A stretch of DNA of 52,753 nt, taken from Bacteroidales bacterium (GTDB taxonomy: Bacteria; Bacteroidota; Bacteroidia; Bacteroidales; F082). The stretch is taken from assembly GCA_017548125.1 (NCBI GenBank), contig JAFYNK010000045.1:1-52753 (forward strand), in the 5' to 3' direction. Each line of letters begins with the position of its first letter. Position 1 is the first letter of the stretch. Made by a program: the position numbers and the translations under genes. The notes under the pieces were generated by a model, which was given only the letters and a program-made list of their open reading frames with translations, made no database searches and was not told where the DNA came from. This document shows, in pieces, positions 6,254 through 52,396 of this stretch.

Positions 6254-6284
6254 AGCTATCAGCTATCAGCTGTCAGCATTTAGT
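6254..6284. repeat. Heptamer array (AGCTATC-type)
   Basis: Four in-phase 7-base units (AGCTATC, AGCTATC, AGCTGTC, AGCATTT) plus AGT lie between the gamma-subunit stop and the terminator. Confidence 0.75.
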
Positions 6285-6316
6285 AAAAAAGTCGCTTCTT
6301 AAGAGGCGACTTTTTT
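6284..6316. terminator. Bidirectional terminator between convergent operons
   Basis: A near-perfect hairpin (AGTCGC.TCTTAAGA.GCGACT) flanked by an A run and a T run can end both the plus-strand oxidoreductase operon and the minus-strand ABC export operon. Confidence 0.85.
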
Positions 6317-6349
6317 AGTTTTTAATATAATTTTATGAGTTAGTCATTT

Positions 6350-7453
6350 TCACACCTGCTTCTTATAAGTTATCGTGGCAAGTAAATTGAAAATTATCAC
6401 GAAGACACCGAGTGCTGCAAAGTTGTGCCATAATTCCATAAACACCGCTCCTTTCAAATAAACAGAACGCATAATGTCAATGTAATAGCGAGGTGGAAGC
6501 AACATTGTGAATTTCTGCGCCCAGTCAGGCATCGAACTGATAGGCGTAAGCAGTCCGCTCAACAAGATGAAAATCACGATAAAGAAAAACATCATGAACA
6601 TGGTCTGCTGAATGTTATCCGAAATATTGGCGATAGTCACGCCGAAACCTGAGAAACAGAGAATGAATAATATCGTGGCGAAATAAATATTTCCCAAAGA
6701 ACCTACAGGAACGAGATCGTAAACAAGCCAGGCAACAATCATAGCTACAGTGACGACGAACAATCCTATCAGCCAGAAAGGAATCAGTTTTGCAAGGACA
6801 AAGGTAAACTTACCAATTGGCGTGACATTGATCTGCTCAATTGTTCCATTCTCTTTTTCCGAAACGATATTAACAGACGAGAGGAAACCACATATCAAAA
6901 TAACCAACATAATCATCAGAGCTGGAATCATCAGATTGCGATAATTCAATGTAGGATTATAACGATTCTGTATTACGACAAAGTCAGAAAGGTGCGATCT
7001 TCCCTGTTCGCTCATATATTTTGACATCGTAGAAGCAATCGTCTGAACGAGATATTGACTTCCGAGTGAGCCTTTTGTAGCATTTACTGCATTCGCAGAA
7101 ATATCCAATTTCTTTGGCGAAACACTTGTGATATTACGTTCAAAATCATCAGGAATCAGAAGAATTATATCAATCTTAGAATCTTCCAACAAACGTAATG
7201 CCTCCTCATGTGTATTAGGTTCATCGTTAATTGTAAAATATTCAGCGGCACGAATATCACTCTTAATGCGATATGACAAAGTGGAACAATCGTCATCGAT
7301 AATCGCGACACCGACATTACGTACGTCCATCGTCGTAACCCAAGGCATAACAAGCATTACCATCACTGGAAATATGAGAATCAGTTTAGGTAACAATGGA
7401 TTACGAAAGATTTGGATAAACTCCTTTTGTATTAATATTAATAATTGTCGCAT
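6350..7453 (-). CDS. ABC-2 type transporter permease (YbhR-like)
   Basis: A 367-residue inner-membrane permease. An N-terminal transmembrane helix (about 20-40) precedes a large periplasmic domain (about 45-170), then five hydrophobic segments from about 175 to the end. The pattern ..SVNIVSEKENGTIEQINVTPIG is typical of drug- or polysaccharide-type ABC-2 permeases of the YbhS/YbhR/YhhJ family. It is the last gene of the TetR-TolC-HlyD-ABC operon, 3 bases after its paralogue. I infer that the two permeases form a heterodimer working with the two upstream ATPases to move substrate to the HlyD/TolC conduit. Confidence 0.87.
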   Translation of the reverse strand: MRQLLILIQKEFIQIFRNPLLPKLILIFPVMVMLVMPWVTTMDVRNVGVAIIDDDCSTLSYRIKSDIRAAEYFTINDEPNTHEEALRLLEDSKIDIILLIPDDFERNITSVSPKKLDISANAVNATKGSLGSQYLVQTIASTMSKYMSEQGRSHLSDFVVIQNRYNPTLNYRNLMIPALMIMLVILICGFLSSVNIVSEKENGTIEQINVTPIGKFTFVLAKLIPFWLIGLFVVTVAMIVAWLVYDLVPVGSLGNIYFATILFILCFSGFGVTIANISDNIQQTMFMMFFFIVIFILLSGLLTPISSMPDWAQKFTMLLPPRYYIDIMRSVYLKGAVFMELWHNFAALGVFVIIFNLLATITYKKQV

Positions 7454-7456
7454 AAT

Positions 7457-8551
7457 CTATTCAAGTTTATCTTTAAAATTCTTAAGAGAAATTCCCATCA
7501 GGACAAAAGCCATAATTACAAGTATGATTAGTTCTTTCATCACAGCCGACAGTGGCAAACCCATAATCATCAATTTACGAATCGCGTCGATATACCAGCG
7601 AGCTGGTACGATGTTAGGAAGCGGTTTCAATATCATTGGAAGGTTTTCGAGAGGGAAAAGCATTCCAGAAAGCATCATCATTGGCAGAAGCAAAACCATA
7701 GCTGATACAAGCAATGCCACAACTTGCGAAGAAGAAACCGTTGAGATAAACAATCCCAAAGCGAGAGACAACAGCAGATAAACGATAGACATTACTATTA
7801 CGCCACCCCAAACGCCATCCAAAGGAATGTAGAGCAAATAACGAGCGATAAGTAATATTGTCACAAGATTGATACAAGAGATGACGAAATAAGGTATCAT
7901 CTTAGCGAGAATGATTTTGATAGGACGCACTGGCGAAACGAGCAGCACCTCCATCGTACCGACTTCTTTTTCCCTGACAATAGAAATCGACGTCATCATC
8001 GCGCATATCAATATGAAAATAAGCCCCATGATGCCAGGCACGAAGTTATAAGCCGACTTCATCTGCGGATTGTAGAGCAAGTGCATATTCAGCATTTCCT
8101 GTTGTGAATGCTCCGTAGCGATAGCATTTTGTAAATAAATTGCGCCTGTCTGAGCTAGGTTTGTATTAGACGCATCGAAGATAAACTGCACTGCAGGTTT
8201 TGTGTCGATTCCTTCCGAACGCTGCGCCAATAACTTATCGTAATCCTCATCAAAAAGCACAACTACGTTAGCCTTTCCGCTACGCAACACCTTATCAATA
8301 TCGTTATTATCGATATAATCTATTAAGGTGAAATAAGGATTTCTTGAAAGTCGATCCACGGTCTGCCGCACACTTTCAGTACGATTCGGAGCGACTACCG
8401 CCACGTCGAGGTTATTTACCTCCGTGGAGATGGCGAAACCAAATAATATCATCAGCACCACTGGTATGAGCAGCACTATCATCATCGTACGCACATCACG
8501 CAAGATATGTAAGGACTCTTTCTTTACGAATGACAGAAAATTATTTTTCAT
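7457..8551 (-). CDS. ABC-2 type transporter permease (YbhS-like)
   Basis: A 364-residue paralogue of the downstream permease with the same plan: one N-terminal helix, a periplasmic domain (about 45-170), then a membrane domain beginning near MGLIFILICAMMTSISIVREKEVGTMEVLLVSPVRP. The charged EKEVGTME loop after the first helix of the membrane domain is the family signature. It lies 3 bases after the ATPase gene and 3 before the second permease. It probably contributes half of the inner-membrane channel of an MacB/Ybh-like tripartite exporter. Substrate unknown. Confidence 0.87.
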   Translation of the reverse strand: MKNNFLSFVKKESLHILRDVRTMMIVLLIPVVLMILFGFAISTEVNNLDVAVVAPNRTESVRQTVDRLSRNPYFTLIDYIDNNDIDKVLRSGKANVVVLFDEDYDKLLAQRSEGIDTKPAVQFIFDASNTNLAQTGAIYLQNAIATEHSQQEMLNMHLLYNPQMKSAYNFVPGIMGLIFILICAMMTSISIVREKEVGTMEVLLVSPVRPIKIILAKMIPYFVISCINLVTILLIARYLLYIPLDGVWGGVIVMSIVYLLLSLALGLFISTVSSSQVVALLVSAMVLLLPMMMLSGMLFPLENLPMILKPLPNIVPARWYIDAIRKLMIMGLPLSAVMKELIILVIMAFVLMGISLKNFKDKLE

Positions 8552-8554
8552 GAT

Positions 8555-14385: not shown

Positions 14386-14392
14386 ATTAATT

Positions 14393-14420
14393 CATAATTC
14401 ACAATGCATAATGCATAATT
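14393..14420. repeat. Heptamer array (CATAATT-type)
   Basis: Four in-phase units (CATAATT, CACAATG, CATAATG, CATAATT). The same family occurs at 23901-23928. Confidence 0.75.
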
Positions 14421-14431
14421 TATTTATGTAG

Positions 14432-14477
14432 AGACGCATCAATTACACCTTAAAAATAAACACACATTGAAGCGTCT
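14432..14477. repeat. GTAGAGACG-type inverted repeat
   Basis: AGACGC and TCAA at 14432-14442 pair with TTGA and GCGTCT at 14467-14477. GTAGAGACG-headed hairpins are a recurrent intergenic motif in Bacteroidetes and cyanobacteria (from memory). Related pieces occur at 49369-49388 and 52541-52549. Confidence 0.5.
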
Positions 14478-14512
14478 TATTATTTAAAATTGAAAATGGA
14501 AAATTAAAAGTT

Positions 14513-17302
14513 ATGAAAAAATTATTTCTCATCATTATATTGGCTTTATTCGTTAATGTCAACGGACAACAGACAACAGACAACAGTAGTGAGCCATCAG
14601 CCATCAGCTATCAGCAATCAGTAAATACCGGAATTATTCCAACTCCACAATTTGCTGAAATTTGTGATTTTAATAATTCAACAAATAATTTTGTTATAGA
14701 CGAGTCTTGCTTACTCGTTGATATTGGTGAAAATGAAGAAATATCTAAAATCATCAATACTTTCAAAAATGACATCCAAGAAATAACAGGTATTGATTTA
14801 AAAGTTTCTAAAAAAGGAAACAAAAAAAGAAATAATATCGTTTTTGGTATATATGATCCTGAAAAAATTGAACAAATCCAAAATGGTCCTAAAGATATAA
14901 TAGGATTAGATAGTAGAGAAATAAATCCTCAAGAATATCATATAATTGTTATTGGAAACTATATAATGGTATCAGCACCAACTCCTCAAGGTCTTTTCTA
15001 CGGAGCTCAAAGTTTGAAACAGATAATCCGTCACCAACTTCTCACAGAAAACAATCTGAATATTCCTTGGTATTACATCTTCGACTATCCTTCTCTTGAA
15101 TATCGCGGATGGATGGATGACATCAGTCGCGGTCCTATTCCAACAACGGAATTTATCAAAGAAGAAATTCGTCGCCTCGCTGAATATAAATTCAATTTCT
15201 TCAACCTTTACACCGAACATCTTTTCAAACTCGACGAATATCCTGACATCGCTCCTACCGACGGTCTCACTGCCGAAGAAATCAAAGAGCTGACAGAATA
15301 CGCAAAGGATTATTACATAGAATTCATCGGTAACCAACAATGTTTCGCTCATGCCGAAAAGACTCTCGACAATCCTTTCTATAACGACATCAAAGACACT
15401 CGTTTCAACTTCAATCCTGGTGTTGAAGACACTTACGAGTTTTTAGAAACATTACTCGGAGAGACAGCACAAGCATACGAATCAAAATATTTTAACATCA
15501 ACTGCGACGAGACAGAAAGTCTCGGCAACGGAAACGCTAAGTCATACGTCGATAGCCTCGGCGCTGAGAACGCATACTGCCAACATATAAATAAGGTATA
15601 TGACATTTTGCAAAAATATGACAAAGATGTCATGATGTGGGGCGACATCCTCGCCAAGAATCCTGAGATGATCAAACAGCTTCCAGAAAACATGCAGTTC
15701 ATCGTTTGGAGCTACGGCGGTCGTGAAAGTTTCGACGAGATGATAGCACCTTTCAAAAACTCAGGACATACTTTCTGGGTAGCTCCTGGAGCAAGCTGCT
15801 GGGCAAGCTGTTTCCCTAACATGGACAACTACATCGTCAATATCGCCAACTTCGCTCGCGACGGTTATAAGAACGGAGCTAAAGGTGTCATCAACACCGC
15901 TTGGGACGACTACGGCGAAACAATGTTCAACGAGGTATGGCACGCGATGGTATGGTGCGCAGAAACAAGCTGGAACACATTGAAGACTAATGACAACGAA
16001 GAGAGAATCGCTAGAGAAGAGATTTTCAATAAGAATTTCAATATTCAATATTTCCAACAGCAAACAGCAAACAGCCAAAGTTATGTACTTGATCATCTAT
16101 ATGAATTAAACAGAATGATTGACGAGAGCGATATGACTAACCTTATGAACTTCACCGTTCTAAACTCTCCTCTTTTGGAGTTTTATCCTTCACAATTAGA
16201 TTCAGCAGCGATTGCAAAAAATGAACATGAGAAACAACAAGCTTTCGATATTTATCAAAAACTTTTGAAAGACAGACAAGAAGTCAAAGCAAATCCAGAA
16301 ATCATTGATGTTGCAATATTGGCTGCTTATAGAGCATATATCGTGACACTGAAGAATGAATTGAGAGTCAATCTTTATAAAACAATGCTCAACCCAACTG
16401 AAGAAAATGTAGCATCAACACGAAATATGTCTGCACAGTTCTTAGATTCACTTCATTGCTTGAAGAAAAGATTTGTCAAGGCATGGGATATGGAGTCACG
16501 TTCATACTACAGAAACGTTTTCACTGAACGCTATGACAAAATAGCTAAAGACGTTTTGAATGCAGGAAACCATGTTTTTATAGAGACTACAAGACTACAA
16601 GACTACAAGACTACAAGTAATGGTCAACAGACTTTGGTTTCTTTAAAGACTATATTTAACGATAGAGATATTTATTACACTATAGACGGCAGCGAGCCTG
16701 ACAAGAACAGTAAGGTTTATACTGGTCCTTTTGCCATTGAACGCTCTTGTATCGTGAAGGCTACTTGTTTTGAAGACAACAGAGACAAAATCATCAGCGA
16801 GAAATACATCCTCTATCATAAGGGCATGGGACATTTCAAAAAGTTGAATACTGTTGCTGGCAACTACAGACCAGAATATTCTGGAGGTAGCGAAGACGCA
16901 TTGCTCAACGGAGCTGTCGGCACGAACAACTACAAAGACGGCAACTGGCAAGGATTCTATGGCAACGACTGCGACATTGAACTCGACTTCGGCAAAAAGG
17001 AAAAACTTAATTCATTAAAGATTAATTTCATTACTAATCCATACGACTGGATTTTGATGCCTAAGAGAATGTCGGTATATCACTCTGACAACGGCATTCA
17101 TTATCAATTATTCAAATCATACGACCTCTACGAAGAAGTGCCAACATCAAGAAGCACAATCGTGACAAAGACAATAGATGTAAGCGGTTTATCAAGCAGA
17201 TATGTCAGAATCATGATTGAAAACCCTGGATTCATTCCACAAGGACTTCCAGGATACAATAATCCATCATGGATGTTTATGGATGAAATCGTTGTGGAAT
17301 AG
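14513..17302 (+). CDS. GH20 beta-N-acetylhexosaminidase, multidomain, secreted
   Basis: A 929-residue exported glycosidase. A signal peptide covers residues 1-18 (MKKLFLIIILALFVNVNG). An N-terminal GH20b-like domain (about 38-175) ends in the APTPQGLFYGAQSLKQI motif. The GH20 barrel (about 190-510) holds the catalytic Asp332-Glu333 pair in FNINCDETES. A chitobiase C-like segment (YYTIDGSEPDKNSKVYTGPF, about 718-740) and a C-terminal discoidin/CBM32-like domain (about 780-929) follow. It probably removes terminal GlcNAc or GalNAc from host or dietary glycans in the periplasm or on the surface; no T9SS signal or lipobox is seen. Three repeat arrays are read through in frame: 14565-14627, 16056-16076 and 16585-16616. 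Confidence 0.88.
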   Translation: MKKLFLIIILALFVNVNGQQTTDNSSEPSAISYQQSVNTGIIPTPQFAEICDFNNSTNNFVIDESCLLVDIGENEEISKIINTFKNDIQEITGIDLKVSKKGNKKRNNIVFGIYDPEKIEQIQNGPKDIIGLDSREINPQEYHIIVIGNYIMVSAPTPQGLFYGAQSLKQIIRHQLLTENNLNIPWYYIFDYPSLEYRGWMDDISRGPIPTTEFIKEEIRRLAEYKFNFFNLYTEHLFKLDEYPDIAPTDGLTAEEIKELTEYAKDYYIEFIGNQQCFAHAEKTLDNPFYNDIKDTRFNFNPGVEDTYEFLETLLGETAQAYESKYFNINCDETESLGNGNAKSYVDSLGAENAYCQHINKVYDILQKYDKDVMMWGDILAKNPEMIKQLPENMQFIVWSYGGRESFDEMIAPFKNSGHTFWVAPGASCWASCFPNMDNYIVNIANFARDGYKNGAKGVINTAWDDYGETMFNEVWHAMVWCAETSWNTLKTNDNEERIAREEIFNKNFNIQYFQQQTANSQSYVLDHLYELNRMIDESDMTNLMNFTVLNSPLLEFYPSQLDSAAIAKNEHEKQQAFDIYQKLLKDRQEVKANPEIIDVAILAAYRAYIVTLKNELRVNLYKTMLNPTEENVASTRNMSAQFLDSLHCLKKRFVKAWDMESRSYYRNVFTERYDKIAKDVLNAGNHVFIETTRLQDYKTTSNGQQTLVSLKTIFNDRDIYYTIDGSEPDKNSKVYTGPFAIERSCIVKATCFEDNRDKIISEKYILYHKGMGHFKKLNTVAGNYRPEYSGGSEDALLNGAVGTNNYKDGNWQGFYGNDCDIELDFGKKEKLNSLKINFITNPYDWILMPKRMSVYHSDNGIHYQLFKSYDLYEEVPTSRSTIVTKTIDVSGLSSRYVRIMIENPGFIPQGLPGYNNPSWMFMDEIVVE
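14565..14627. repeat. Nine-unit heptamer array in the GH20 gene, after the signal peptide
   Basis: Nine 7-base units in strict phase: three GACAACA, one GTAGTGA, two GCCATCA, then GCTATCA, GCAATCA, GTAAATA. The 63 bases encode 21 residues of Gln/Ser/Thr-rich linker without breaking the frame. Confidence 0.85.
16056..16076. repeat. Three-unit heptamer array in the GH20 gene
   Basis: AACAGCA, AACAGCA, AACAGCC encode part of FQQQTANSQS. Twenty-one bases keep the frame. Confidence 0.7.
16585..16616. repeat. Four perfect octamers (GACTACAA) in the GH20 gene
   Basis: Four identical copies of GACTACAA encode TTRLQDYKTTS between domains. The same octamer appears between genes at 38117-38148. Confidence 0.85.
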
Positions 17303-17312: not shown

Positions 17313-17382
17313 GGAATTAGGAATTAGGAATTAGAAATTAGAAATTAGGAGTTATGAATTAGGAATTAGGAGTGTAGAGTTA
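17313..17382. repeat. Ten-unit heptamer array (GGAATTA-type)
   Basis: In-phase 7-base units (GGAATTA, GAAATTA, GGAGTTA, TGAATTA and variants) fill the whole gap between GH20 and the next gene. The last unit supplies the A of the start codon at 17382. Confidence 0.85.
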
Positions 17383-17831
17383 TGAAGAGGGTTATAATAC
17401 TTTTAACGATATTCTTTTTTTGTACTAATTCTTATTCTCAAGAATACAAAGGTTTGTATGCCAAAGCGTCTGCTAGCATTGCGTATCCTTGTCCGACATT
17501 CATTGTATCTGGCGGTTATGAATTCAACAGGCATCTGGCATTAGGTGTCGGTGTTGGAGTATTATCTCCTGCTTTTTACGATATATGTTTTCCGCTCAGC
17601 ATCGAGATAAGCGGTGACATAACAAAAAAGAATATCATAGGAAACGCAGCGCTTTGCTATAGCATCGAACCTATGATATTCGGTCGTAATTTTTATTGGA
17701 TATTACCTAAAATAGGATTAAGAAATAACAACTTCCATTTTTATCTCACGACGATAGGATTTAATGTCGGATATAAGATTCCTTTTAAAAGTCACCGAGT
17801 CACTGAGTCTCTAAGTATTTTCACTTGGTGA
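17382..17831 (+). CDS. Small outer-membrane beta-barrel-like protein
   Basis: A 149-residue exported protein. The signal peptide is MKRVIILLTIFFFCTNSYSQ. The rest is glycine- and aromatic-rich with alternating hydrophobic residues (GGYEFNRHLALGVGVGV, IGFNVGYKIPFK), which suggests a small beta barrel. The final ~13 residues after GYKIPFK (SHRVTESLSIFTW) are encoded by an octamer-like repeat array, and the stop codon lies in the hairpin formed by that array. The original stop may have been just after IPFK. The start codon also touches the preceding heptamer array. No function recognised. Confidence 0.55.
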   Translation: MKRVIILLTIFFFCTNSYSQEYKGLYAKASASIAYPCPTFIVSGGYEFNRHLALGVGVGVLSPAFYDICFPLSIEISGDITKKNIIGNAALCYSIEPMIFGRNFYWILPKIGLRNNNFHFYLTTIGFNVGYKIPFKSHRVTESLSIFTW

Positions 17832-17841
17832 CTCGGTGACT
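17790..17841. terminator. Repeat-derived hairpin between convergent genes
   Basis: AGTCACCGAGTCAC (17790-17803) pairs perfectly with GTGACTCGGTGACT (17828-17841). The arms consist of ~8-base repeat units, and the upstream gene's stop codon lies in the second arm. Poor T runs, so its strength as a terminator is uncertain. Confidence 0.6.
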
Positions 17842-17863
17842 CGGCGTCTGGGTGACTTTGACT

Positions 17864-20800
17864 TTATTCTCCCCAATAATTATAATTCTCTACATCTTTC
17901 ATCAACTCTCTCACTGCTGCTTCAAGTTGTTCGTCAATGCCTTCAGCGAGTTTCTCAGGTGTGTTTCTTACCTTAACATCTGGTTCGAGTTGTGAGTTTT
18001 CAAGATAAAAACCTTCTTGTGTTCTGTAGCCAACCACTGGCAATCCGAAGTACAAGTCAGTGTCTTGCAATGTCTCCCAAGTAACGCTACTCATTGTTCC
18101 TGGCACTGGCATACCGACGAGCTTACCCATTTTCTTATGTTTGTAAACCCAAGGTGTTCCGTGAGCGTTGCTGTAGTTAGCCTCACACATCAACATGATT
18201 GAAGGTTTGACATAACGACGTGATGGCATCACACAGGCGACGCTGTCGCGGATCACTTGTTCAAGATATTTCTCGCCGCTGAACAATATTTCAATGTCTT
18301 CGTGCAAACGACCGCCGCCATTGAAACGAGTGTCGATGACAATACCTTTTCTCCTGTTATATTTACCTAAGATGTCGGCATATACGTCACGATAGCTAGC
18401 GTCGCCCATGCTACGGATATGGACATAACCCAATGTTCCATTAGAGAGGCTGTCAACGATTTCGGCATTACGTTTAATCCAGCGTTGATATAACAACTCA
18501 TTCTGTGTTCCTTTTGAAATAAGCTTAACAATCTCTTCCCAACGTTTCTTTGTATCAGGATTATAAACTGTCACCAAGACTTGTTTTCCCACTTTTTTAT
18601 TGAGAAGAGGACAATAATCCATGTCTTTTGTTATCTCGACGCCGTCAATTTTTTCAATGATGTTTCCAGCTTCCACTTTAGAATGTTTCTTGTCGAATGG
18701 ACCTTTTTCCAAAACTTCATCAATCAAAAGTCCGTCGCCTTCATAGTTGACATCGAAGAGAAGTCCGAAATAAGCAGTCACGTCGCCGCTCTTGCCATTG
18801 CTACGCATTCCGCAACCAGAGTGAGAAACATTGAGTTCACCGAGAATCTCGCTCATCATTTCTGTGAAGTCATAATTATTATTGATATGTTCCAAAAATG
18901 GATAGAAGTCCTTCTTTATTTGAGCGAAGTCGGCTCCGTTGCTGTCTTTTCTGAAGAGGCGTTTGTTTTCTTGCAAGAAAATGTGATTGTACATATATTC
19001 ACGTTCAGCGGCACGGTCGAGTGTCATTGTCGCATCATATTTAATAGGTGTTGACTTGCCACCTTTTGTTTCAATTGTCTGAAGGTTACCACCAGACAAG
19101 ACAAATAATTTATCGCCTTTTTTATTCAATTTTATTTCAGCTCCGCCCATTCCAAGTTTTTTCAAAACCTTGGTAGATTTCTCGCGCACGTCAAATTCCC
19201 AGAGGTCGTAGCCTTTTTCAAAAGCGCTCAAGAAGAACAACTTGTCGCCATCTTTTGAAAGTGACACTCCAGAGAGTCGTGACGACATTGGAGTAAGACG
19301 AATGATACGTTCTTCGAGTCCGTCGAGTTCAACGACGATGTCTTTTTTCTCTTCAGCTTTCTTATCGTCTTTTTTATCTTTTTTGTCTTTCTTGTCGTTA
19401 GATTTCTCTGCCAAGTCCTTAGCCATTTTCTCTTCTTTTTTCAAAAGGTCGTAATCTTCTTTTGAGAGACGGAATTTATCGTAAGCCTCCTGATTCAAGA
19501 AAGCGATGAATGCATCATCCTGGCTACCCCACGAAGCATGAGAGCGCAATCCATAACGGTTTGAGATGAAAGTGACGGCGTTGCCATCCATAGCCCATTG
19601 AGGAGACGATGTAATATATGCGCTGTTAGTGATATTGTAAATCTTCATATCGCCGTTTGCAGAAACGATGCCGACATCTGAATAAGGGTCGTGCATGTTG
19701 GTTATCAATGTAAGAGCGAACCATTTACCGTCAGGTGACCATTCATATTCGAAGCAATAATCGTCATTACGATAATGTTGAGTTCCGTCGGTTATCTGAC
19801 GTACTTTCTTTGTCTCGAGGTTAATGACTTTTAAGATATTTCTGTTTTCGAGATAAGCGAGTTCTTTGCCATCAGGAGAAAACTTAGGGACGCCGCGTTC
19901 GATGCCGTCCTTTTCAAACAAAGGCTCTTCATTAATTAATGTAGCGTATGTGAAGTTAATGTCTTCCTTACGAGCCATCTCAGCTTTGTAAAGACTGAAG
20001 TAACCATCGCGTTCAGAGACATATACGAGAGTTCTACCGTCAGGTGAGAATGTTGGATAAGCCTCTGCTTCTGGAGTATGAGTAATCTGTTTTGTTGTCT
20101 GATATTCTTCTGATGTAACGAATATTTCGCCACGAGAAACGAAAGCGATGAGGTCACCTTCAGGTGTGATTGTGATGTCTTTAGCGCTGCCGAACTTACC
20201 TATGACTGGTGTTTCTTCTTGGTCGTTAACGATTTGTATTTCAACTTTCTTAGGTTCGCCTCCGATAGTCTGAGTATATATCTCGCCTTGGAATCCGTAG
20301 CATAACAAACCATCGTTAGATACTGTCAGGAATCTTACAGGATATGTTGGGAAGTCAGTGATTTGCTCAGCATTGTTGATGTCATTCATCTTTGCTTTAT
20401 AAACGTTAAAGTTGCCACCTTCGCCTTCACTGAGGAACACTATTTCCTCTTTACCAGGAAGATAACGAGGGTCGCGGTCTTCGCCGATATTTGTTGTTAA
20501 GATTGTATGTGTCTTTTCTTTAGCATCATAATAAACTATGTCGCGAGCCATTGAAGAGATCTGATGTTTACGCCATTCGTCTTCGCCGCCTTTTTCATCA
20601 TAATAAAGGAAAGACTCGTTGTCATTATCAAAAGAGATGCTGCAGACGTTAGTAGCGCACACTTGTTGAGGACGGCCGCCATCCACCGACACCTTATATA
20701 ATTCGCGCATCCATCCAGCTGGGAACTGAGCATTGGAAGCGTCTCTTTGGATGTTAGCTCTATAATAAATCATAGAGTCGTCGGCTGAGAAAGCGAGAGG

Positions 20801-21172
20801 AATCTCTGAGGTTGAGTTCGTTGTGACACGCTTTGCCACGCCTCCATCAACAGAAACGACATAGATGTCGAAGTTAGCATTTCTGTCGGTAGAGAATGCG
20901 ATGTATTTACCATCATTAGACCAGATAGGATTGAAGTCGTACGATGAGTTCGTTGTAATCTGACGAGCCAAGCCTCCTTCTGCGTCAACGACATAAATAT
21001 CACCTTTATAAGCGAAAGCTATCTTATCGCCCTGAGGAGATATTGCGTTATAACGCATCCATAAAGGCTGTGAGCCTTGAGCCATGAGCTGTGAGCCTTG
21101 GAACAAGATAATAAACAAAAATGCCAAAAATCTTGTTGTCTTGTTGACTTGTTGTCTTGTTGTCTTTTTCAT
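17864..21172 (-). CDS. Tricorn-like S41 protease with beta-propeller and PDZ domain
   Basis: A 1102-residue exported protease. After a signal peptide (to about residue 32) come TolB/WD40-like propeller blades (SPQGDKIAFAYKGDIYVVDAEGG, SPDGRTLVYVSERDG and others) to about residue 720, interrupted by a Lys/Asp-rich linker (about 577-607). A PDZ-like domain (about 815-850) and an S41 domain (about 905-1090) follow. The likely nucleophile Ser is in ANYSNAHGTP (about residue 1000), with the GIVIDTRFNGGGR loop upstream. It resembles tricorn-type peptidases of Bacteroidetes acting in the periplasm on peptides. Both ends of the signal peptide are repeat-encoded. It lies 11 bases downstream of the exonuclease gene and is probably cotranscribed. 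Confidence 0.85.
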   Translation of the reverse strand: MKKTTRQQVNKTTRFLAFLFIILFQGSQLMAQGSQPLWMRYNAISPQGDKIAFAYKGDIYVVDAEGGLARQITTNSSYDFNPIWSNDGKYIAFSTDRNANFDIYVVSVDGGVAKRVTTNSTSEIPLAFSADDSMIYYRANIQRDASNAQFPAGWMRELYKVSVDGGRPQQVCATNVCSISFDNDNESFLYYDEKGGEDEWRKHQISSMARDIVYYDAKEKTHTILTTNIGEDRDPRYLPGKEEIVFLSEGEGGNFNVYKAKMNDINNAEQITDFPTYPVRFLTVSNDGLLCYGFQGEIYTQTIGGEPKKVEIQIVNDQEETPVIGKFGSAKDITITPEGDLIAFVSRGEIFVTSEEYQTTKQITHTPEAEAYPTFSPDGRTLVYVSERDGYFSLYKAEMARKEDINFTYATLINEEPLFEKDGIERGVPKFSPDGKELAYLENRNILKVINLETKKVRQITDGTQHYRNDDYCFEYEWSPDGKWFALTLITNMHDPYSDVGIVSANGDMKIYNITNSAYITSSPQWAMDGNAVTFISNRYGLRSHASWGSQDDAFIAFLNQEAYDKFRLSKEDYDLLKKEEKMAKDLAEKSNDKKDKKDKKDDKKAEEKKDIVVELDGLEERIIRLTPMSSRLSGVSLSKDGDKLFFLSAFEKGYDLWEFDVREKSTKVLKKLGMGGAEIKLNKKGDKLFVLSGGNLQTIETKGGKSTPIKYDATMTLDRAAEREYMYNHIFLQENKRLFRKDSNGADFAQIKKDFYPFLEHINNNYDFTEMMSEILGELNVSHSGCGMRSNGKSGDVTAYFGLLFDVNYEGDGLLIDEVLEKGPFDKKHSKVEAGNIIEKIDGVEITKDMDYCPLLNKKVGKQVLVTVYNPDTKKRWEEIVKLISKGTQNELLYQRWIKRNAEIVDSLSNGTLGYVHIRSMGDASYRDVYADILGKYNRRKGIVIDTRFNGGGRLHEDIEILFSGEKYLEQVIRDSVACVMPSRRYVKPSIMLMCEANYSNAHGTPWVYKHKKMGKLVGMPVPGTMSSVTWETLQDTDLYFGLPVVGYRTQEGFYLENSQLEPDVKVRNTPEKLAEGIDEQLEAAVRELMKDVENYNYWGE
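21064..21098. repeat. Heptamer array in the signal-peptide end of the S41 protease
   Basis: Five in-phase units (AAGGCTG, TGAGCCT, TGAGCCA, TGAGCTG, TGAGCCT on the plus strand) encode the cleavage region GSQLMAQGSQPL. Confidence 0.75.
21133..21164. repeat. Octamer array in the signal-peptide start of the S41 protease
   Basis: Four 8-base units (TTGTTGTC, TTGTTGAC, TTGTTGTC, TTGTTGTC) encode the basic n-region TTRQQVNKTTR. On the minus strand this is the GACAACAA octamer also seen at 22042 and 33127. Confidence 0.8.
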
Positions 21173-22033: not shown

Positions 22034-22041
22034 TAAAAAAA

Positions 22042-22073
22042 GACCACAAGTCAACAAGACAACAAGACAACAA
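22042..22073. repeat. Octamer array (GACAACAA-type), intergenic
   Basis: Four in-phase 8-base units (GACCACAA, GTCAACAA, GACAACAA, GACAACAA) just upstream of the exonuclease promoter box. Confidence 0.8.
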
Positions 22074-22116
22074 GTATTTTTTTAATGACAAATGTCAAAT
22101 GTCCAAAGGAAATTGA

Positions 22117-23214: not shown

Positions 23215-23285
23215 AAGCCATTTATTTTTTTTGCCGTTGCTAAATTAAGATTATTTTTCAAAAGAAGCAAACAAATTAAACCATT

Positions 23286-23334
23286 GAACTTTGAACTTTG
23301 AACTTTAGACTTTAGACTTTAGACTTTAGACTTT
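23286..23334. repeat. Seven-unit heptamer array (GAACTTT/AGACTTT)
   Basis: Three GAACTTT then four AGACTTT units in perfect phase, upstream of the divergent C10 protease and PUR-alpha genes. Confidence 0.88.
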
Positions 23335-23893: not shown

Positions 23894-23900
23894 TAAAATT

Positions 23901-23928
23901 CATAATGCATAATTCACAATTCATAATT
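23901..23928. repeat. Heptamer array (CATAATT-type), second copy
   Basis: CATAATG, CATAATT, CACAATT, CATAATT in phase; the same unit family as at 14393-14420. Confidence 0.78.
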
Positions 23929-31924: not shown

Positions 31925-32472
31925 AATCAATCGCTGTGGCAACGGGTTTGATCAGCGTCTGGTATTCCAAGAAAATCAATATTCTGGTCTTCCCTATTGG
32001 AATCATCAGCGTTCTGTTATATGTATTCATATTCATAAAAAACGGTCTGTTCGCCAATGCTGGAATAAATTTTCTTTATTTCGTGATAAGCGTTTTCGGT
32101 TGGTGGAATTGGCAAAAGACAAAAGACAAAAGACAAAAGACTGAAGACCTTGCAGTGACTTTTTTAAACTCAAGACAAAGGTTTGTAACATTGACGATTG
32201 TCTTGGTTTTGTTATTCACATCTAAGATATTCTCTTCTGACACAACGACATTCCTTGATTATATCACTGGCATTTTAGGTTTGGGAGGAATGTTACTTAC
32301 CGCTTTAAAGAAAGTCGAGAATTGGGTTTTATATTTACTCTGCGATATAATATTAATTCCATTATGCATCTATAACGGATTATATCTCACCGTTTTACAA
32401 TATATAATTTACGCAATCATTGCAGTTATGGGTTACATCAGCTGGAGCAAGGAGGCGAAGAAAAATGTTTAA
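31903..32472 (+). CDS. pnuC: Nicotinamide riboside transporter PnuC
   Basis: A 189-residue membrane protein with six to seven hydrophobic helices. It has the family's FGWWNWQ motif (about 62-68) and a terminal AVMGYISWSK. It facilitates uptake of nicotinamide riboside, trapped by phosphorylation. The downstream gene, overlapping by 8 bases, encodes a NadR-type kinase, supporting this substrate. The start codon lies in a heptamer array (31848-31924). A second array of AAAAGAC units (32114-32148) encodes the loop QKTKDKRQKTED after the WNWQ motif. Confidence 0.88.
   Translation: MNYELIIESIAVATGLISVWYSKKINILVFPIGIISVLLYVFIFIKNGLFANAGINFLYFVISVFGWWNWQKTKDKRQKTEDLAVTFLNSRQRFVTLTIVLVLLFTSKIFSSDTTTFLDYITGILGLGGMLLTALKKVENWVLYLLCDIILIPLCIYNGLYLTVLQYIIYAIIAVMGYISWSKEAKKNV
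32114..32148. repeat. Five-unit heptamer array (AAAAGAC) in pnuC
   Basis: Four AAAAGAC and one TGAAGAC unit encode a basic cytoplasmic loop. The array is read through all three codon phases, giving KTKDKRQKTED. Confidence 0.85.
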
Positions 32473-36904: not shown

Positions 36905-38113
36905 ATGGGAAACATCATTTTATCACAAAGAGTCAACAACATGGCAGAATCAGCCACATTGAAAATGACTCAATTAAGTCGTGAATTAAAAGCTCAAGGA
37001 ATCGACGTTATTTCATTAAGCATTGGCGAACCTGACTTCAACACACCTGTTGCAGCAAAACAAGCAGGTATCGATGCTATCAACAATAATGACACACACT
37101 ATCCTCCTGTTCCTGGAACACCAGCATTGCGCAAAGCTATCGCTGAAAAATTAAAACGCGACAACGGCCTCGACTATACAGATGCTGACATCATCGTTTC
37201 AAACGGTGCAAAACAAGCTATCACAAACGTTTTCATGGCTATCGTTGACAAAGGTGATGAAGTCATCATCCCTGCTCCTTTCTGGGTATCATATCCTGAA
37301 ATGGTGAAATTAGCTGACGGTACTCCTGTTTTCATCAACACAACAGCTGAACAAAACTTCAAAATCACAGCTGAACAATTAGAAGCAGCTATCACTCCTA
37401 AAACAAAAGCTTTCATCTTCAGCACACCATGTAACCCAAGCGGTTCTGTATATACAAAAGAAGAATTAGCTTCTTTAGCAGAAGTATTCAAAAAATATCC
37501 TAACATCATCATCTTGTCTGACGAAATCTATGAATTCATCCAATACGAACAAAAACACGAAAGCATGGGTCAATTCACAGAATTGAAAGACAGACTCGTC
37601 ATCATCAACGGCGTCGCTAAAGGTTATGCTATGACTGGCTGGCGTATCGGTTACATCGCAGCTCCTAAAGCTATCGTTTCAGCATGCAACAAAATCCAAG
37701 GTCAATACACATCTGGTATCTGTACAATCGCTCAAGCCGCTTCTTTAGAAGCTATGAAGATGTCTCCTGAAAACTCAGAAGAAATCCAAACTATGCTCAA
37801 GGCTTTCAGAAACCGCCGCGACATGTTCTTCGAACTCTTAAGCGAAATCCCTGGAATTAAATTAAGCAAACCAGCTGGCGCTTTCTATATGTTCCCAGAA
37901 ATCAAATCATACTTCGGCAAAACTGACGGCGAAACAACAATCAACAACAGCGACGACCTCTGCTTGTACTTGTTAGACAAAGCTCACGTTGCTTGCGTTG
38001 GCGGCGCTGCTTTCGGCAACGACGAATGTATCCGTCTTTCTTACGCTACATCAGAAGATAAACTCCGCGATGCAGCAGCAAGAATTAAAGAAGCTTTAAG
38101 CAAACTTAAATAA
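36905..38113 (+). CDS. Aspartate-type aminotransferase, class I (Ib)
   Basis: A 402-residue PLP enzyme. SLSIGEPDFNTPVAAKQAGIDAI is the class Ib opening. STPCNPSGSVY holds the cofactor Asn, ILSDEIYE the Asp-Tyr pair, and NGVAKGYAMTGWRIGYIAAP the PLP lysine (about residue 240). The Arg in ECIRLSYA binds the substrate carboxylate. Most likely it transfers amino groups between aspartate and 2-oxoglutarate. It is transcribed alone and ends at a repeat-derived terminator. Confidence 0.92.
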   Translation: MGNIILSQRVNNMAESATLKMTQLSRELKAQGIDVISLSIGEPDFNTPVAAKQAGIDAINNNDTHYPPVPGTPALRKAIAEKLKRDNGLDYTDADIIVSNGAKQAITNVFMAIVDKGDEVIIPAPFWVSYPEMVKLADGTPVFINTTAEQNFKITAEQLEAAITPKTKAFIFSTPCNPSGSVYTKEELASLAEVFKKYPNIIILSDEIYEFIQYEQKHESMGQFTELKDRLVIINGVAKGYAMTGWRIGYIAAPKAIVSACNKIQGQYTSGICTIAQAASLEAMKMSPENSEEIQTMLKAFRNRRDMFFELLSEIPGIKLSKPAGAFYMFPEIKSYFGKTDGETTINNSDDLCLYLLDKAHVACVGGAAFGNDECIRLSYATSEDKLRDAAARIKEALSKLK

Positions 38114-38116
38114 TAA

Positions 38117-38148
38117 GACCACAAGACAACGAGACTACAAGACTACAA
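38117..38148. repeat. Octamer array (GACTACAA-type)
   Basis: GACCACAA, GACAACGA, GACTACAA, GACTACAA in phase. The last unit forms one arm of the terminator hairpin at 38141-38172. Confidence 0.8.
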
Positions 38149-38177
38149 GCAAACGCTTGTTGGCTTGTAGTCTTTTT
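38141..38177 (+). terminator. Terminator built from repeat units
   Basis: GACTACAAGC (38141-38150) pairs perfectly with GCTTGTAGTC (38163-38172), followed by TTTTT. Confidence 0.85.
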
Positions 38178-38196
38178 GACTTTTAGACTTAAAAAA

Positions 38197-40224: not shown

Positions 40225-40298
40225 GGTCTCTTCGTCTAGTCTGGTCAGGACGTCAGGTTTTCATCCTGGTAACAGGGGTTCAAATCCCCTAGAGACTA
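40225..40298 (+). tRNA. tRNA-Glu (anticodon TTC), copy 1
   Basis: A 74-base cloverleaf. GGTCTCT pairs with AGAGACT (one G-U pair). The anticodon stem TCAGG/CCTGG holds loop TTTTCAT with anticodon TTC. The T arm AGGGG-TTCAAAT-CCCCT is perfect. CCA is not encoded. It is followed 42 bases later by an identical copy. Confidence 0.95.
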
Positions 40299-40340
40299 CA
40301 AAAGTTCTCCACTACTTTAAAAGGTGGTCATTTAATGGGC

Positions 40341-40414
40341 GGTCTCTTCGTCTAGTCTGGTCAGGACGTCAGGTTTTCATCCTGGTAACAGGGGTTCAAA
40401 TCCCCTAGAGACTA
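40341..40414 (+). tRNA. tRNA-Glu (anticodon TTC), copy 2
   Basis: Identical over all 74 bases to the copy at 40225, with a few identical flanking bases (GGCG before, CAAA after), which suggests a recent tandem duplication. CCA is not encoded. Confidence 0.95.
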
Positions 40415-40430
40415 CAAATAAAAATCACAG

Positions 40431-41157: not shown

Positions 41158-42125
41158 TGACACACGAAAAACCAAACTTACAAATCATCATAGGAAACCA
41201 ATACAACCCATATATCAACCTAGCAGTAGAAAGCTATCTTCTCGACAATTTTCTTCCTAACACAATAACAATGTTCCTCTGGAAAAACAGCAAGACTGTC
41301 GTCATCGGAACAAACCAGAATCCATATAGCGAATGCGACATAGAAACGCTTTTCGCAGATGACGGCTTCATTGCAAGAAGAAGAACAGGTGGCGGCTCCG
41401 TATATCACGACCTCGGAAACCTTAACTTCTCTTTCATAGCCGATAAAGAAATATATGATGTAAAGAGACAGATGCAAGTCATCCAGAACGCTCTTCTTGA
41501 CTTTAACTTAACGACAGAAGTAAGCGGAAGAAACGACATCACCTACGAAGGACGCAAGTTCTCAGGCAACGCTTTCGCAAAGACAAGACACCAAGGCCTG
41601 CACCACGGAACAATCTTGATAAAGACCGACGGCGAACGTTTGCAGAAAGTCCTCAAGGTAAAACCCGCTAAATTACACAAACACGGCGTGAAGTCAGTAG
41701 CCAGCAGAGTGATAAACCTTTCTGAAGTAGCAGACATAACTTCCGACAATATCATTCCACATCTCGTCAAAGCTTTTGAAAAAGTCTATGACAACGAAGC
41801 CAAAGTCATAGAGTTCGATTCACTACTCACAGACGAGGTCATAAAATTCAGCCAGCACATCGGCAGCGACGAATATCTCTTCGGCAAATGGAAAGAATTC
41901 AGCACCAAGAAAAGCGACACCTTTGACTGGGGCAGCGTTGACATCGACCTTAACATCGACGAAGCAAACGGAATAATAAAAGACATCAACATCGCATCCG
42001 ACAGCCTAGAACCAGCCTCCATCAACGCAGCGATGGAATTATTAAAAGGAGCCAATATCAAAGAAACTCCATCATTACCTTCCGACAATAAAATCATAAA
42101 CGATATTATCAGATTGATTTATTAA
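41157..42125 (+). CDS. lplA: Lipoate-protein ligase A
   Basis: A 322-residue ligase activating lipoate with ATP and attaching it to lipoyl domains. RRTGGGSVYHDLGNLNFSFI (about 76-95) is the lipoate-adenylate site. GRNDITYEGRKFSGNAF contains the catalytic Lys region, and GTILIKTDGERLQKVLKV is conserved. A C-terminal accessory domain (about 245-322) is present. It starts on the last base of the beta-barrel gene's stop, so translation is likely coupled. A long repeat hairpin begins at its stop. Confidence 0.92.
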   Translation: MTHEKPNLQIIIGNQYNPYINLAVESYLLDNFLPNTITMFLWKNSKTVVIGTNQNPYSECDIETLFADDGFIARRRTGGGSVYHDLGNLNFSFIADKEIYDVKRQMQVIQNALLDFNLTTEVSGRNDITYEGRKFSGNAFAKTRHQGLHHGTILIKTDGERLQKVLKVKPAKLHKHGVKSVASRVINLSEVADITSDNIIPHLVKAFEKVYDNEAKVIEFDSLLTDEVIKFSQHIGSDEYLFGKWKEFSTKKSDTFDWGSVDIDLNIDEANGIIKDINIASDSLEPASINAAMELLKGANIKETPSLPSDNKIINDIIRLIY

Positions 42126-42208
42126 GTCTATGAGACTATGAGTCAATAAGTCTATAAGTTAAAAAATACTCATAGACTCATAGACTTATTGACTTATAGA
42201 CTTTTTTT
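42124..42208 (+). terminator. Long repeat-derived terminator hairpin after lplA
   Basis: Two 36-base arms (42124-42159 and 42168-42203) around an 8-base loop pair almost throughout, with a few G-U pairs and mismatches. Both arms are tandem variants of AGTCTATR/AGTCAATA. T run at 42202-42208. The first arm starts within the lplA stop codon. Confidence 0.85.
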
Positions 42209-42210
42209 CT

Positions 42211-42218
42211 TATCTTTG
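42211..42218 (+). promoter_or_regulatory. -7 box (TATCTTTG) of the miaB-mtaB operon
   Basis: TATCTTTG matches TAnnTTTG, immediately after the T run of the hairpin. The -33 region falls in the hairpin's second arm (around TTATTGAC). Confidence 0.6.
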
Positions 42219-48618: not shown

Positions 48619-48621
48619 GAA

Positions 48622-50316: not shown

Positions 50317-50324
50317 TAATAAAT

Positions 50325-51068: not shown

Positions 51069-51077
51069 AATAATAAT

Positions 51078-52256
51078 ATGAATAATAAAGGAATTATCGG
51101 TGCTATCATCGGAGACATTGCAGGATCTCGTTTTGAATTTAACAATTACCGTTCAACAGATTTTCAACTATTTAATGACAAATGCTTTTTCACAGACGAC
51201 AGTGTTATGACAATTGCTGTTGCTGATTGGATTACGAATAAAAGCAAAACACCGAAACAACTCTCCAGCTATATGAGAGAATGGGGACGCAAATACCCTA
51301 ATAGTGGTTATGGTGGTATGTTTTTTAGATGGTTGTTCTCAAGAGATTTATTGCCTGCTTATAATAGTTTTGGCAATGGTTCTGCAATGCGTGTCAGTCC
51401 TTGTGGATTTTTTGCACATTCTCTTCAAGAAGCATTGGATTTAGCCAAACAAAGTGCTGAGATTACACACAATCATCCAGAAGGTATAAAAGGTGCTCAA
51501 AGTGTTGCAGCGGCGATATATCTCGCAAAAAGTGGTTATAACAAAGATGCAATAAAAGAATATATCGAACTTAATTTCCACTATGACTTGAATCGTACTT
51601 GTGATGATATACGGAAGGTTTACAAATTCAATGAAACATGTCAAGAAACTTGTCCTGAAGCCATCATTGCTTTTTTAGAAAGTCATGATTACGAATCTGC
51701 AATAAAATTAGGTATATCAATTGGAGGTGACAGCGATACAATTGGAGCAATAACAGGAAGTATTGCCGCCGCTTTTTATGGTGTCCCTAATTCAATAATA
51801 AATGAAGCAAAAAAATTTATACCTTATGATTTTATAGAAATAATTGAAAAATTTGAAGGAAATAATATAGAAAAAAGAATATCACCAGAGTTTATCAATA
51901 AATTGGAAAACAACGAAATTTTCGTCTTCGGAAGTAACCTTAAAGGCATGCACGGAGGAGGTGCAGCTCGCATCGCTTATGATAAATTCGGCGCCATCTG
52001 GGGACAAGGCGTAGGTTTACAAGGACAAAGTTACGGCATCCCAACAATGCACGGTGGAACAGATGTCATAAAACCATACGTCGATGAGTTCATAGACTTT
52101 GCAAAACAGCATCCAGAATTAAAGTTTTTAGTCACAAGAATTGGTTGTGGTATTGCTGGTTTCAGTGATGAAGAAATGGCACCTCTTTTTAAAGATGCGA
52201 TCGAAATTGAAAACATTTATTTACCTAAAAGTTTTTATTATATTTTAGTCAAGTAA
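51078..52256 (+). CDS. ADP-ribosylglycohydrolase fused to a macro-like C-terminal domain
   Basis: A 392-residue two-domain protein. Residues 1-265 are a DraG/ARH-type hydrolase with intact metal sites: FTDDSVMTIA near the start and GGDSDTIGAITGSIAAAFYG near 225-240. Residues ~272-392 (NEIFVFGSNLKGMHGGGAARIAYDKFGAIWGQGVGLQ, then FLVTRIGCGIAGF) resemble the small macro-like domain of A1S_2505-type phage proteins. The fusion could both remove ADP-ribose from a target and bind or process the product. It is 9 bases after the Nudix gene and probably cotranscribed. A terminator follows. Confidence 0.85.
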   Translation: MNNKGIIGAIIGDIAGSRFEFNNYRSTDFQLFNDKCFFTDDSVMTIAVADWITNKSKTPKQLSSYMREWGRKYPNSGYGGMFFRWLFSRDLLPAYNSFGNGSAMRVSPCGFFAHSLQEALDLAKQSAEITHNHPEGIKGAQSVAAAIYLAKSGYNKDAIKEYIELNFHYDLNRTCDDIRKVYKFNETCQETCPEAIIAFLESHDYESAIKLGISIGGDSDTIGAITGSIAAAFYGVPNSIINEAKKFIPYDFIEIIEKFEGNNIEKRISPEFINKLENNEIFVFGSNLKGMHGGGAARIAYDKFGAIWGQGVGLQGQSYGIPTMHGGTDVIKPYVDEFIDFAKQHPELKFLVTRIGCGIAGFSDEEMAPLFKDAIEIENIYLPKSFYYILVK

Positions 52257-52278
52257 ATTGAATCTTAAATAATAATAG

Positions 52279-52309
52279 AAAGCAGTGGAATGTATCTACT
52301 GCTTTTTTT
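52279..52309 (+). terminator. Terminator of the ADP-ribosylglycohydrolase operon
   Basis: AGCAGT (52281-52286) pairs with ACTGCT (52298-52303), flanked by A and T runs. Confidence 0.82.
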
Positions 52310-52368
52310 ATATTCACAGTCCTTAACCTCAATTCCTCAAGCCATAAATTTCTCATAGCCACAGATCC

Positions 52369-52396
52369 TTAGCCATTAGCCTTTTGTCTTTAGTCT
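52369..52396. repeat. Heptamer array (TTAGCCA/TTAGTCT-type)
   Basis: TTAGCCA, TTAGCCT, TTTGTCT, TTAGTCT in phase; the same word family as the array ending lpxC at 34283-34310. Confidence 0.75.

Follow-up and report, generated by a model that had tools for sequence, protein, structure and literature searches.

The 52,753-bp contig JAFYNK010000045.1 (hereafter the window, the whole stretch analysed) is one contig of the 2.73-Mb draft genome of a Bacteroidales bacterium (assembly GCA_017548125.1, designated G000; related genomes likewise carry G numbers), and contains many short tandem arrays of degenerate 7- or 8-bp units, referred to below as words. A stricter scan for degenerate arrays of periods 4 to 12 detected 20 arrays of period 7 or 8 in the window (11 and 9, respectively), as against two of period 6, four of period 9, two of period 12 and none of periods 4, 5, 10 and 11, and 36 of the 66 rows obtained with Tandem Repeats Finder had a period of 7 or 8. 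The arrays lie after stop codons and occupy intergenic gaps, and eight of the 20 are located inside predicted genes. The array-bearing genes are of the GH20-type hexosaminidase, tricorn-like protease, DapB, PnuC-like transporter and glycosyltransferase types, and within them the arrays contribute polar stretches to the protein. The arrays of the window, including weaker ones, are the following.

6254-6277, plus strand: 7-bp array AGCTATC, intergenic.
14388-14420, plus strand: 7-bp array, a mix of TAATTCA and CATAATG, immediately 3' of a stop codon; same array in G079, longer in G068.
14560-14586, plus strand: 7-bp array CAACAGA, near the 5' end of the GH20-type gene (14513-17302).
14592-14621, plus strand: 7-bp array GCNATCA, in the GH20-type gene.
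16056-16075, plus strand: 7-bp array AACAGCA, in the GH20-type gene; GACAACA (7 bp) in G081, GTCAACGA/GTCAACAA (8 bp) in G063.
16584-16618, plus strand: 8-bp array GACTACAA, in the GH20-type gene.
17313-17371, plus strand: 7-bp array GGAATTA of 59 bp, intergenic.
17790-17857, plus strand: inverted pair of 8-bp arrays, AGTCACCG and CGGTGACT, in a hairpin (17784-17862, z -6.9).
21071-21100, minus strand: 7-bp array in the tricorn-like gene (17864-21172); TGTTGGC-type in G081, G068 and G026.
21131-21166, minus strand: 36-bp array of AAGACAAC units, at the start of the tricorn-like gene.
22040-22075, plus strand: 8-bp array AAGNCNAC, intergenic; 7-bp words at this site in G026 and G081.
23284-23334, plus strand: 7-bp array whose word shifts midway from TTGAACT to TTAGACT with the phase kept.
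23897-23928, plus strand: 7-bp array CATAATT; other 7-bp words in G081, G068, G063 and G077, an 8-bp word in G062.
26383-26422, plus strand: 8-bp array AATTCAGG, inside dapB.
31848-31923, plus strand: 7-bp arrays GTTGGGA and AATTATG, extending into the start codon of gene 31903-32472.
32113-32142, plus strand: 7-bp array CAAAAGA, inside the PnuC-like transporter gene.
33125-33152, plus strand: 8-bp array AAGACAAC, inside the glycosyltransferase gene and adjoining a GTAGAGAC element.
38115-38190, plus strand: inverted pair of 8-bp arrays, in a terminator-like hairpin (38112-38195, z -7.4).
42123-42204, plus strand: inverted pair of 8-bp arrays, AAGTCTAT and ATAGACTT, in a hairpin (42120-42212, z -6.5).
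52369-52398, plus strand: degenerate 7-bp array TTAGCCA / TTTGTCT, weak (score 11).

These positions agree with a sequence-only reading of the window, whose arrays were recovered at the places it had named or no more than a few bases away (6254, 14388, 14560, 17313, 22040, 23284, 32113 and 38115), with weaker support at 52369 and at 31848, where Tandem Repeats Finder gave period 7 with 75% matches. At a further place, 34283, degenerate 7-base words (TTAGCCT TTTGCCA TTAGTCA TTAGCC) can be seen by eye, but the site appears in the array list of neither scan. The recurrence of words at distant places, which that reading had also noticed, was found for GACAACAA at 21133 (minus strand), 22042 and 33127, for GACTACAA at 16585 and 38117, and for the CATAATT type at 14393 and 23901.

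Plain autocorrelation of the whole window, a form of the check that the reading had proposed for the whole genome, showed no clear excess (lag 7, 0.2697; lag 8, 0.2668; lag 5, 0.2670; lag 10, 0.2610), because the arrays occupy little of the sequence and the signal sits in local runs. The excess was therefore tested on runs in a genome sample of 452,753 bp (about one-sixth of G000), consisting of the window and 20 stretches of 20 kb sited on contigs already known to contain the AAGACAAC word. Counting perfect runs of at least 9 against order-3 Markov sequence, we obtained 49 runs at lag 7 and 47 at lag 8, where 3.0 and 1.7 were expected, and these numbers also exceed the 0, 14, 8 and 7 runs at lags 5, 6, 9 and 10 (expected 4.0, 4.3, 4.7 and 1.7), so that the predicted excess does exist in run-based counts. 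With mismatches permitted, 28 degenerate arrays of period 7 and 24 of period 8 were counted, and at most four of each other period from 4 to 13. Lags 14, 15, 16, 21 and 24 were elevated too, as were other multiples of 3 (12, 18, 27 and 30). Coding sequence raises lags that are multiples of 3, and the related records are metagenome assemblies, both of which speak for chance, codon periodicity or assembly artefact as the source of the arrays. However, the Markov controls fall far below the observed run counts, separate genomes carry arrays at the same sites, and at coding sites the frames are open over the part covered in every species of the group described below that has the gene, some of these parts ending at a contig edge and some species reading the array in another frame. 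An origin of this kind is refuted by the controls and has a negligible probability.

The genomes in which the arrays abound were delimited by the aminotransferase encoded at 36905-38113, which is 96-100% identical in 11 genomes and at most 87% identical in the rest of the genus (93 of the 99 genus genomes matched); the array-rich 'clade' of 11 is thus defined by the identity of one protein. The 8-bp unit skeleton AAGWCNAC was found in 10 of the 11 genomes and in one of the 88 others (G061, three overlapping 8-mer matches at one place), whereas GACAACR, a 7-bp word, was present in ten of these 11 genomes and absent from all 88 others; each of the 11 has at least one of the two words. Counts of AAGWCNAC to GACAACR, which include overlapping matches, separate an 8-rich set (G000 191:2, G081 196:2, G068 81:3, G063 50:6, G079 41:18 and G062 9:0) from a 7-rich one (G026 3:26, G064 2:31, G072 7:20, G073 0:47 and G077 1:68); the reversed-pattern control for GACAACR is not independent, since reversing this word yields one of its own rotations. 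Stretches from the group totalling about 946 kb contained 325 arrays of period 7 or 8 with a score of at least 11, a density that may be high because several stretches of G026, G063, G068 and G079 were picked on contigs or near places with known matches, as against 15 in about 475 kb of loci from other genus members (about 8 kb being counted twice). The outsiders G070 and G078 had two arrays each, and with a looser word filter G070 had three, G078 two and G024 two. An origin strictly within the 11 species was accordingly rejected in view of these sporadic arrays elsewhere in the genus, which suggest that the tendency to form arrays is older than its expansion in the group. The view that such repeats are active in this Bacteroidales lineage therefore holds with the qualification that the expansion is concentrated in 11 similar species.

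Scattered 7- or 8-bp arrays in other members of the genus were seen in stretches L059 (G023), L056 (G016), L248 (G013), L279 (G070) and L281 (G078), and two 8-bp arrays of G023 look mutually inverted. Among the matches listed, most public record titles denoted gut Bacteroidales (cattle, yak, buffalo, sheep, deer and horse), some of them filed as Lentimicrobiaceae, and the 8-bp skeleton also matched contigs titled Spirochaetia, Akkermansiaceae and Saprospiraceae (L143, L146, L170 and L171) as well as one viral contig (L208, IMG/VR). The reversed control of the 8-bp skeleton matched non-array species (G009 with 12, G074 with 6; G100, G004 and others), and these matches may represent other 8-bp words.

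In order to follow single arrays between species, 16 window sites were compared in ten species of the array-rich group, the outgroup G024 and the next most similar genomes G070 and G078; anchors looser than 140 bases were excluded, as were the G026 and G077 entries at 21131, for which the extracted segment gave a neighbouring array. Arrays were present in at least two species at 14 of the sites (67 of 68 entries). At these 14 sites the period agreed in 132 of the 151 orthologous array pairs (87%), compared with a mean of 49.5% and a maximum of 67.5% in 5000 label shuffles, although the pairs are not independent, as the species are related and the dapB site alone supplies 36; with this site removed, 96 of 115 pairs still agreed. 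The period was uniform at nine of the 14 sites. The word, on the other hand, was identical in only 19 of the 132 period-sharing pairs, and the mean likeness of words at orthologous sites on the same strand (0.72 for 7 bp, 0.67 for 8 bp) lay little above that of all array pairs from different species on either strand (0.61 and 0.63). Each site thus retains its period through descent, and its word to a small degree only. This agrees with the claim of the sequence-only reading that period rather than sequence is kept, and identical arrays fixed across relatives, which would have spoken against that reading, were not observed; the process that it postulated is a separate matter, to which we return below.

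The dapB site is an example. All nine readable species had an 8-bp array there, yet with six word types (AATTCAGG, AATTCTGG, ATTCTCAG, CTCAGAAG, AAGTCACC and AGAGACTC), and no array was present in the outgroup G024. At 32113 the array was always of 7 bp, with the words CAAAAGA, GGCTAAA, GACAACG and GTCAACA and a weaker GTCTAAA in G063, and none was scored in G062. At 38115-38190, 8-bp arrays with a score of at least 11 were found in seven group species including G000, of the types GACNACAA, GTCAATAA and GTCACCAA; G026 and G064 had weaker arrays, G073 had none, and G024, G070 and G078 showed array-free gaps of 11, 38 and 44 bp. In the 16-site comparison no species had an array at 34188, and G000 alone had one at 23284. 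An earlier, partly overlapping count gave a 7- or 8-bp array in 91 of 138 tight within-group comparisons, none in 45 and another period in two, and arrays of the outgroup G024 in none of eight comparisons. The arrays thus persist at their sites within the group. Among 25 orthologous comparisons of 8-bp AAGACAAC-type arrays, some differed by whole-unit swaps (for example AAGTCAAC to AAGACTAC), some by unit number (7 versus 4), and in others the array was replaced or absent. A search for empty sites covered 17 comparisons, in several of which the 'empty' species had weak arrays, and established no target-site duplication. In G081 the strongest array at the site of 42123-42204 was a long period-9 array of the GGATTAGAG type.

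The words that replace one another follow the species. With exceptions given further on, orthologous sites 16584, 21131, 22040 and 33125 carry an 8-bp word in 8-rich and a 7-bp word in 7-rich species: at 16584, AATTCAGA in G079, GACNACAA in G081, GTCAACAA in G063 and 7-bp GACAACA in G026, with no array seen in G024; at 21131, AAGACTAC in G081, AAGACTAC/AAGACCAC in G068 and 7-bp GACAACR in G026; and at 33125, 7-bp words in G064, G073, G077 and, weaker, in G072. This contrast of 8 bp with 7 bp was seen in G026 at 16584, 21131 and 22040 and in G064 and G073 at 33125. In raw percentages, 27.6% of 8-bp word pairs within species differed by at most one mismatch, compared with 14.6% between species and 1.1% after shuffling, and for 7-bp words the corresponding values were 18.3%, 11.3% and 4.6%.

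This species-wide agreement of words across unrelated sites is not predicted by slippage acting independently at each site. We favour, with moderate confidence, the interpretation that the 7- and 8-bp units of the arrays, though dispersed, make up one population and undergo genome-wide concerted evolution by slippage and in-phase copying between arrays. Slippage within one array would gain, lose and homogenize units, and copying between arrays, either by template switching or by short-tract gene conversion, would exchange units or whole arrays for those of other sites, which would be possible because the arrays of one species are alike in every register. As both processes would move DNA by whole units and in phase, the period would be inherited and words could drift and sweep through the pool, and a rare one-base insertion or deletion might shift the lexicon from 8 to 7 bp. 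Insertion would be tolerated where it does little harm, namely in intergenic DNA, tolerant in-frame parts of proteins and terminator-like hairpins. We infer slippage and in-phase copying as the causes from the patterns that they would leave.

The units themselves were examined in the G000 sample, which held 26 seven-base and 24 eight-base words, with AAGACTAC (12), AACAAGAC (9), AATTATG (8) and AATTAGG (6) dominant, in arrays about equally divided by period (53 of period 7 and 46 of period 8). In G000 three AAGACAAC units with at most two mismatches gave 121 matches, overlapping ones included, the reversed control giving none, and in 24 separate matches from unselected stretches with up to three mismatches allowed, 50 of the 53 mismatches fell at unit positions 4 and 6. 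A scan for the unit skeleton AAGWCNAC gave 85 arrays in all G000 stretches, including 40 loci chosen for a match, and 45 of the 85 were 35 or 36 bp long, corresponding to AAG followed by four WCNACAAG units, with smaller groups at 20, 28, 44, 52 and 60 bp and other lengths between. Aligned four-unit 8-bp arrays of G000 were distinct from one another in 43 of 46 cases. Four units were also the commonest class in the group as a whole (86 of 196 7-bp and 77 of 129 8-bp arrays). One stretch of G026 (L042:8625-8814) carried a 190-bp array of 27 GAATGAA/GAATGTA units, far above the usual four.

Such lengths could point to an enzyme dedicated to writing or inserting blocks of about 28-36 bp, such as a transposase or a reverse transcriptase with a short template; this would explain both the fixed unit number and the AAG...AAG boundaries. 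The 45 arrays of 35 or 36 bp speak for it, subject to the chosen loci, and so do the ends of the 85 arrays, 76 of which begin with AAG or an AGG/AAG-like A[AG]G and 67 of which end with AAG or AAG plus one base. We nevertheless consider block writing improbable, as words change even within arrays that remain in place and as no common enzyme was found: RVT_1 was present in 7 of the 11 species (56 of 99 in the genus) and the Y1 transposase in 6 of 11 (70 of 99), absences that carry little weight given that completeness is only 79-91% for some array-rich genomes and that profile searches may miss divergent enzymes. Writing by a telomerase-like reverse transcriptase was rejected, RVT_1 not being found in G026, G068, G079 and G081.

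The combinations of letters at the two variable positions are restricted in G000. The unit types A-A, A-T and T-A occurred 140, 95 and 41 times and T-T not at all (about 14 expected), and without the 40 chosen loci the numbers were 36, 41, 18 and 0 (about 8 expected; Fisher p 9e-6), so that the 8-bp units of this genome are of few whole-unit types. RGIG9490 records, whose tentative assignment to G081 received no support from shared 60-mers with two G081 contigs, gave 19, 63, 25 and 0 in the same order, a looser unit count found two T-T units versus 293 of the other three types, and in G063, where T-T units are allowed, they made up 14 of 75 such units. These data bear on plain local slippage, according to which each array turns over alone, 7 or 8 bp is the length engaged by the replicating polymerase and shared words come from seeds or composition. 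It accounts for the inheritance of period and for changes in unit number (7 versus 4 units), and the array at 31892 appears, by eye, to extend a sequence already 7-periodic at the G026 gene start. MutS is not known to repair loops of the size of a 7- or 8-bp unit, and its N-terminal domain is present in all 11 species. Lost mismatch repair was for its part discarded as a cause, since the MutS_I domain was found in 11 of 11 (domain presence, not function). The proposal that period 7 is the length contacted by the replicating polymerase (Mrazek 2007, as reported in PMC4679880 and PMC4692102) would fit the 7-bp class. Against local slippage stand the species-specific lexicons shared by unrelated sites, the missing T-T type in G000, and the four-unit mode in place of a falling length distribution, although the scan thresholds remove arrays shorter than about 2.5 units. 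Neighbouring units, moreover, were not significantly more alike than in shuffled order (0.512 versus 0.483; 158 of 2000 shuffles as high). On balance we regard plain local slippage as possible, albeit on the unlikely side.

A further regularity concerns the triplet GNC, present in 52% of words versus 21% of shuffled words. Its centre is the free position, with 107 of 728 letters changed (14.7%) versus 6.3% elsewhere, and complement flips make up 67% of these 107 changes versus 23-24% in the aligned genome and 9-32% at other array positions. Such flips would suit a reader that makes no difference between GAC and GTC, for which a symmetric dimeric protein is one candidate, or else hairpin copying. 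Self-complementary 4-mers (34% versus 42% shuffled) and freedom from stop codons (65% versus 76%) were not enriched in the words. The arrays might be selected tandem binding sites for a putative protein with a step of 7 or 8 bp and a recognition core of two-fold symmetry; ribbon-helix-helix proteins bind tandem operators in such a stepped manner. The enriched GNC, its variable centre and the complement flips would suit this idea, since a dimer centred on N would not distinguish GAC from GTC, and some 8-bp arrays lie, by eye, directly upstream of a TATCTTTG box, which we take to be promoter-like. However, ordinary genes and hairpins also contain arrays, and closely related species can have wholly different words at one site, as do G000 and G079 at 16584, where the flanks are 91-92% identical despite different 8-bp words. 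We give little credence to selected binding sites.

Several observations weigh against concerted evolution by slippage and in-phase copying. The period differs in 19 of the 151 ortholog pairs, and the dapB word AATTCAGG was found once in the G000 sample, which means that drift confined to one site occurs. The species lexicons have exceptions, G081 carrying 7-bp words at 16056 and 22040 though 8-rich, and G079 departs from the shared lexicon in having a different 8-bp word at 16584. In G063 the two variable positions show no linkage (p 1.0), and where they might be linked the signal is not significant (G079, p 0.15) or weak (G068, p 0.007), these p values being overstated because units of one array are not independent. 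Likewise, the low variation of 2-3% at the other unit positions of the four-unit set is partly built in, because the scan penalized such changes. Exchange between loci was neither seen directly nor traced as a conversion tract, and neither slippage nor copying explains the choice of 7 and 8 or the four-unit mode.

Hairpins formed by inverted pairs of arrays are not confined to the window: an inverted partner within 70 bp was present for 50 of the 325 group arrays, compared with 1, 4 and 2 of 325 in controls. Dispersed REP-like hairpin elements of the form GTAGAGACG...CGTCT were noted at 14428-14480 of the window and in stretches L022, L024, L043, L047 and L050, and in several copies their GTAG end, by eye, borders directly or almost directly on a 7- or 8-bp array; a second hairpin-like sequence, approximately GGAGCGCTGCTGTTAAAGTGGCGCT, adjoins several 8-bp arrays downstream (L022, L065, L070, L071 and L092, also by eye). 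A link to REP elements and RAYT was rejected, as there were 15 TAGAGACG matches, not all of them elements, versus 99 arrays in the G000 sample, and a classification of the arrays as REP elements moved by RAYT was dismissed likewise, the arrays being direct repeats and not palindromic and Y1_Tnp occurring in only 6 of the 11 array-rich species. Elsewhere in the window, positions 29161-29506 hold low-complexity 6/9-bp repeats within the open reading frame 28537-31200, a coding repeat and a different phenomenon, and two tandem tRNA-Glu(TTC) genes, alike in sequence, lie at 40225-40299 and 40341-40415.

The origin of short heptamer arrays lacks agreement, and 11 species with alignable sites make this puzzle testable, since lined-up sites can separate slippage, copying between sites, dedicated enzymes and selection of binding sites, which single genomes cannot. 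If copying between sites does occur, it would mean that a bacterium has a dispersed satellite evolving in concert, from which new protein segments in frame and terminator-like hairpins may arise as by-products. Still more tentatively, and as a rather unlikely proposition, a genome-wide process of in-phase array writing or exchange may have intensified once in the ancestor of the 11 species, making dispersed sites one satellite-like population of units, fixing the period and a block of about four units and replacing the word genome-wide between species, and the same process might underlie the heptamers of Nostoc, Xanthomonas and Beggiatoaceae.

The short tandemly repeated repetitive (STRR) sequences of cyanobacteria are tandem arrays of heptanucleotide units, spread over numerous genomic locations. 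Like them, the Bacteroidales arrays are dispersed over many sites of one genome. About half of the latter have a 7-bp unit; the 8-bp class, the per-site inheritance of period with word replacement and the unit types were examined in Bacteroidales alone. In Rehm 2015 (PMC4692102), the GGGAATC / GGGGAYT heptamers of Xanthomonas and Nostoc are described as dispersed and mostly intergenic, with fixed and variable unit positions, four units being commonest and 70 inverted pairs occurring in Xcc, where 186 repeats were found; in two related species most of them occupy gaps flanked by the same genes, with variation in length and sequence, and the four-unit size of this one G-rich word family is linked to G-quadruplexes. 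The Bacteroidales arrays share the four-unit mode and the frequent inverted pairs. They differ in combining periods 7 and 8, in the replacement of the word from one species to another and in lying also within genes, and no 7- or 8-bp word of the G000 sample contains GGG or CCC (one G-tract word, AACGGGG, occurred in the G026 sample). Because the four-unit mode is present without G-tracts, a G-quadruplex is not needed for this size, which weakens that explanation. The TAACTGA repeats of Beggiatoaceae, Cyanobacteria and five Bacteroidetes are, according to MacGregor 2015 (PMC4679880), mostly intergenic sets of 2-6 copies in the Guaymas genome, lineage-specific and absent in some relatives, with one fixed word and similar heptamers rarely repeated. 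They resemble our arrays as short, lineage-concentrated heptamer arrays, unlike which the latter show many words differing between species at one site as well as 8-bp units; TAACTGA, in any rotation or strand, was absent from the word list of the G000 sample. The long simple sequence repeats of Mrazek 2007, as reported in PMC4679880, have units of 5-11 bp with a heptanucleotide excess for which slippage was proposed, and, on that report, the arrays described here differ from them in the near equality of periods 7 and 8 in G000 and in a species-wide word agreement that slippage alone does not give. The sequence-only reading had called the class little-described, which is correct only in part, as short heptamer arrays are on record in several phyla including five Bacteroidetes (PMC4679880). 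A limited search of the open-licence literature found no description of word replacement at fixed period across species. In general kind the Bacteroidales arrays belong with the heptamers of cyanobacteria, Xanthomonas and Beggiatoaceae, from which they are set apart by their 8-bp class and by the replacement of the word.

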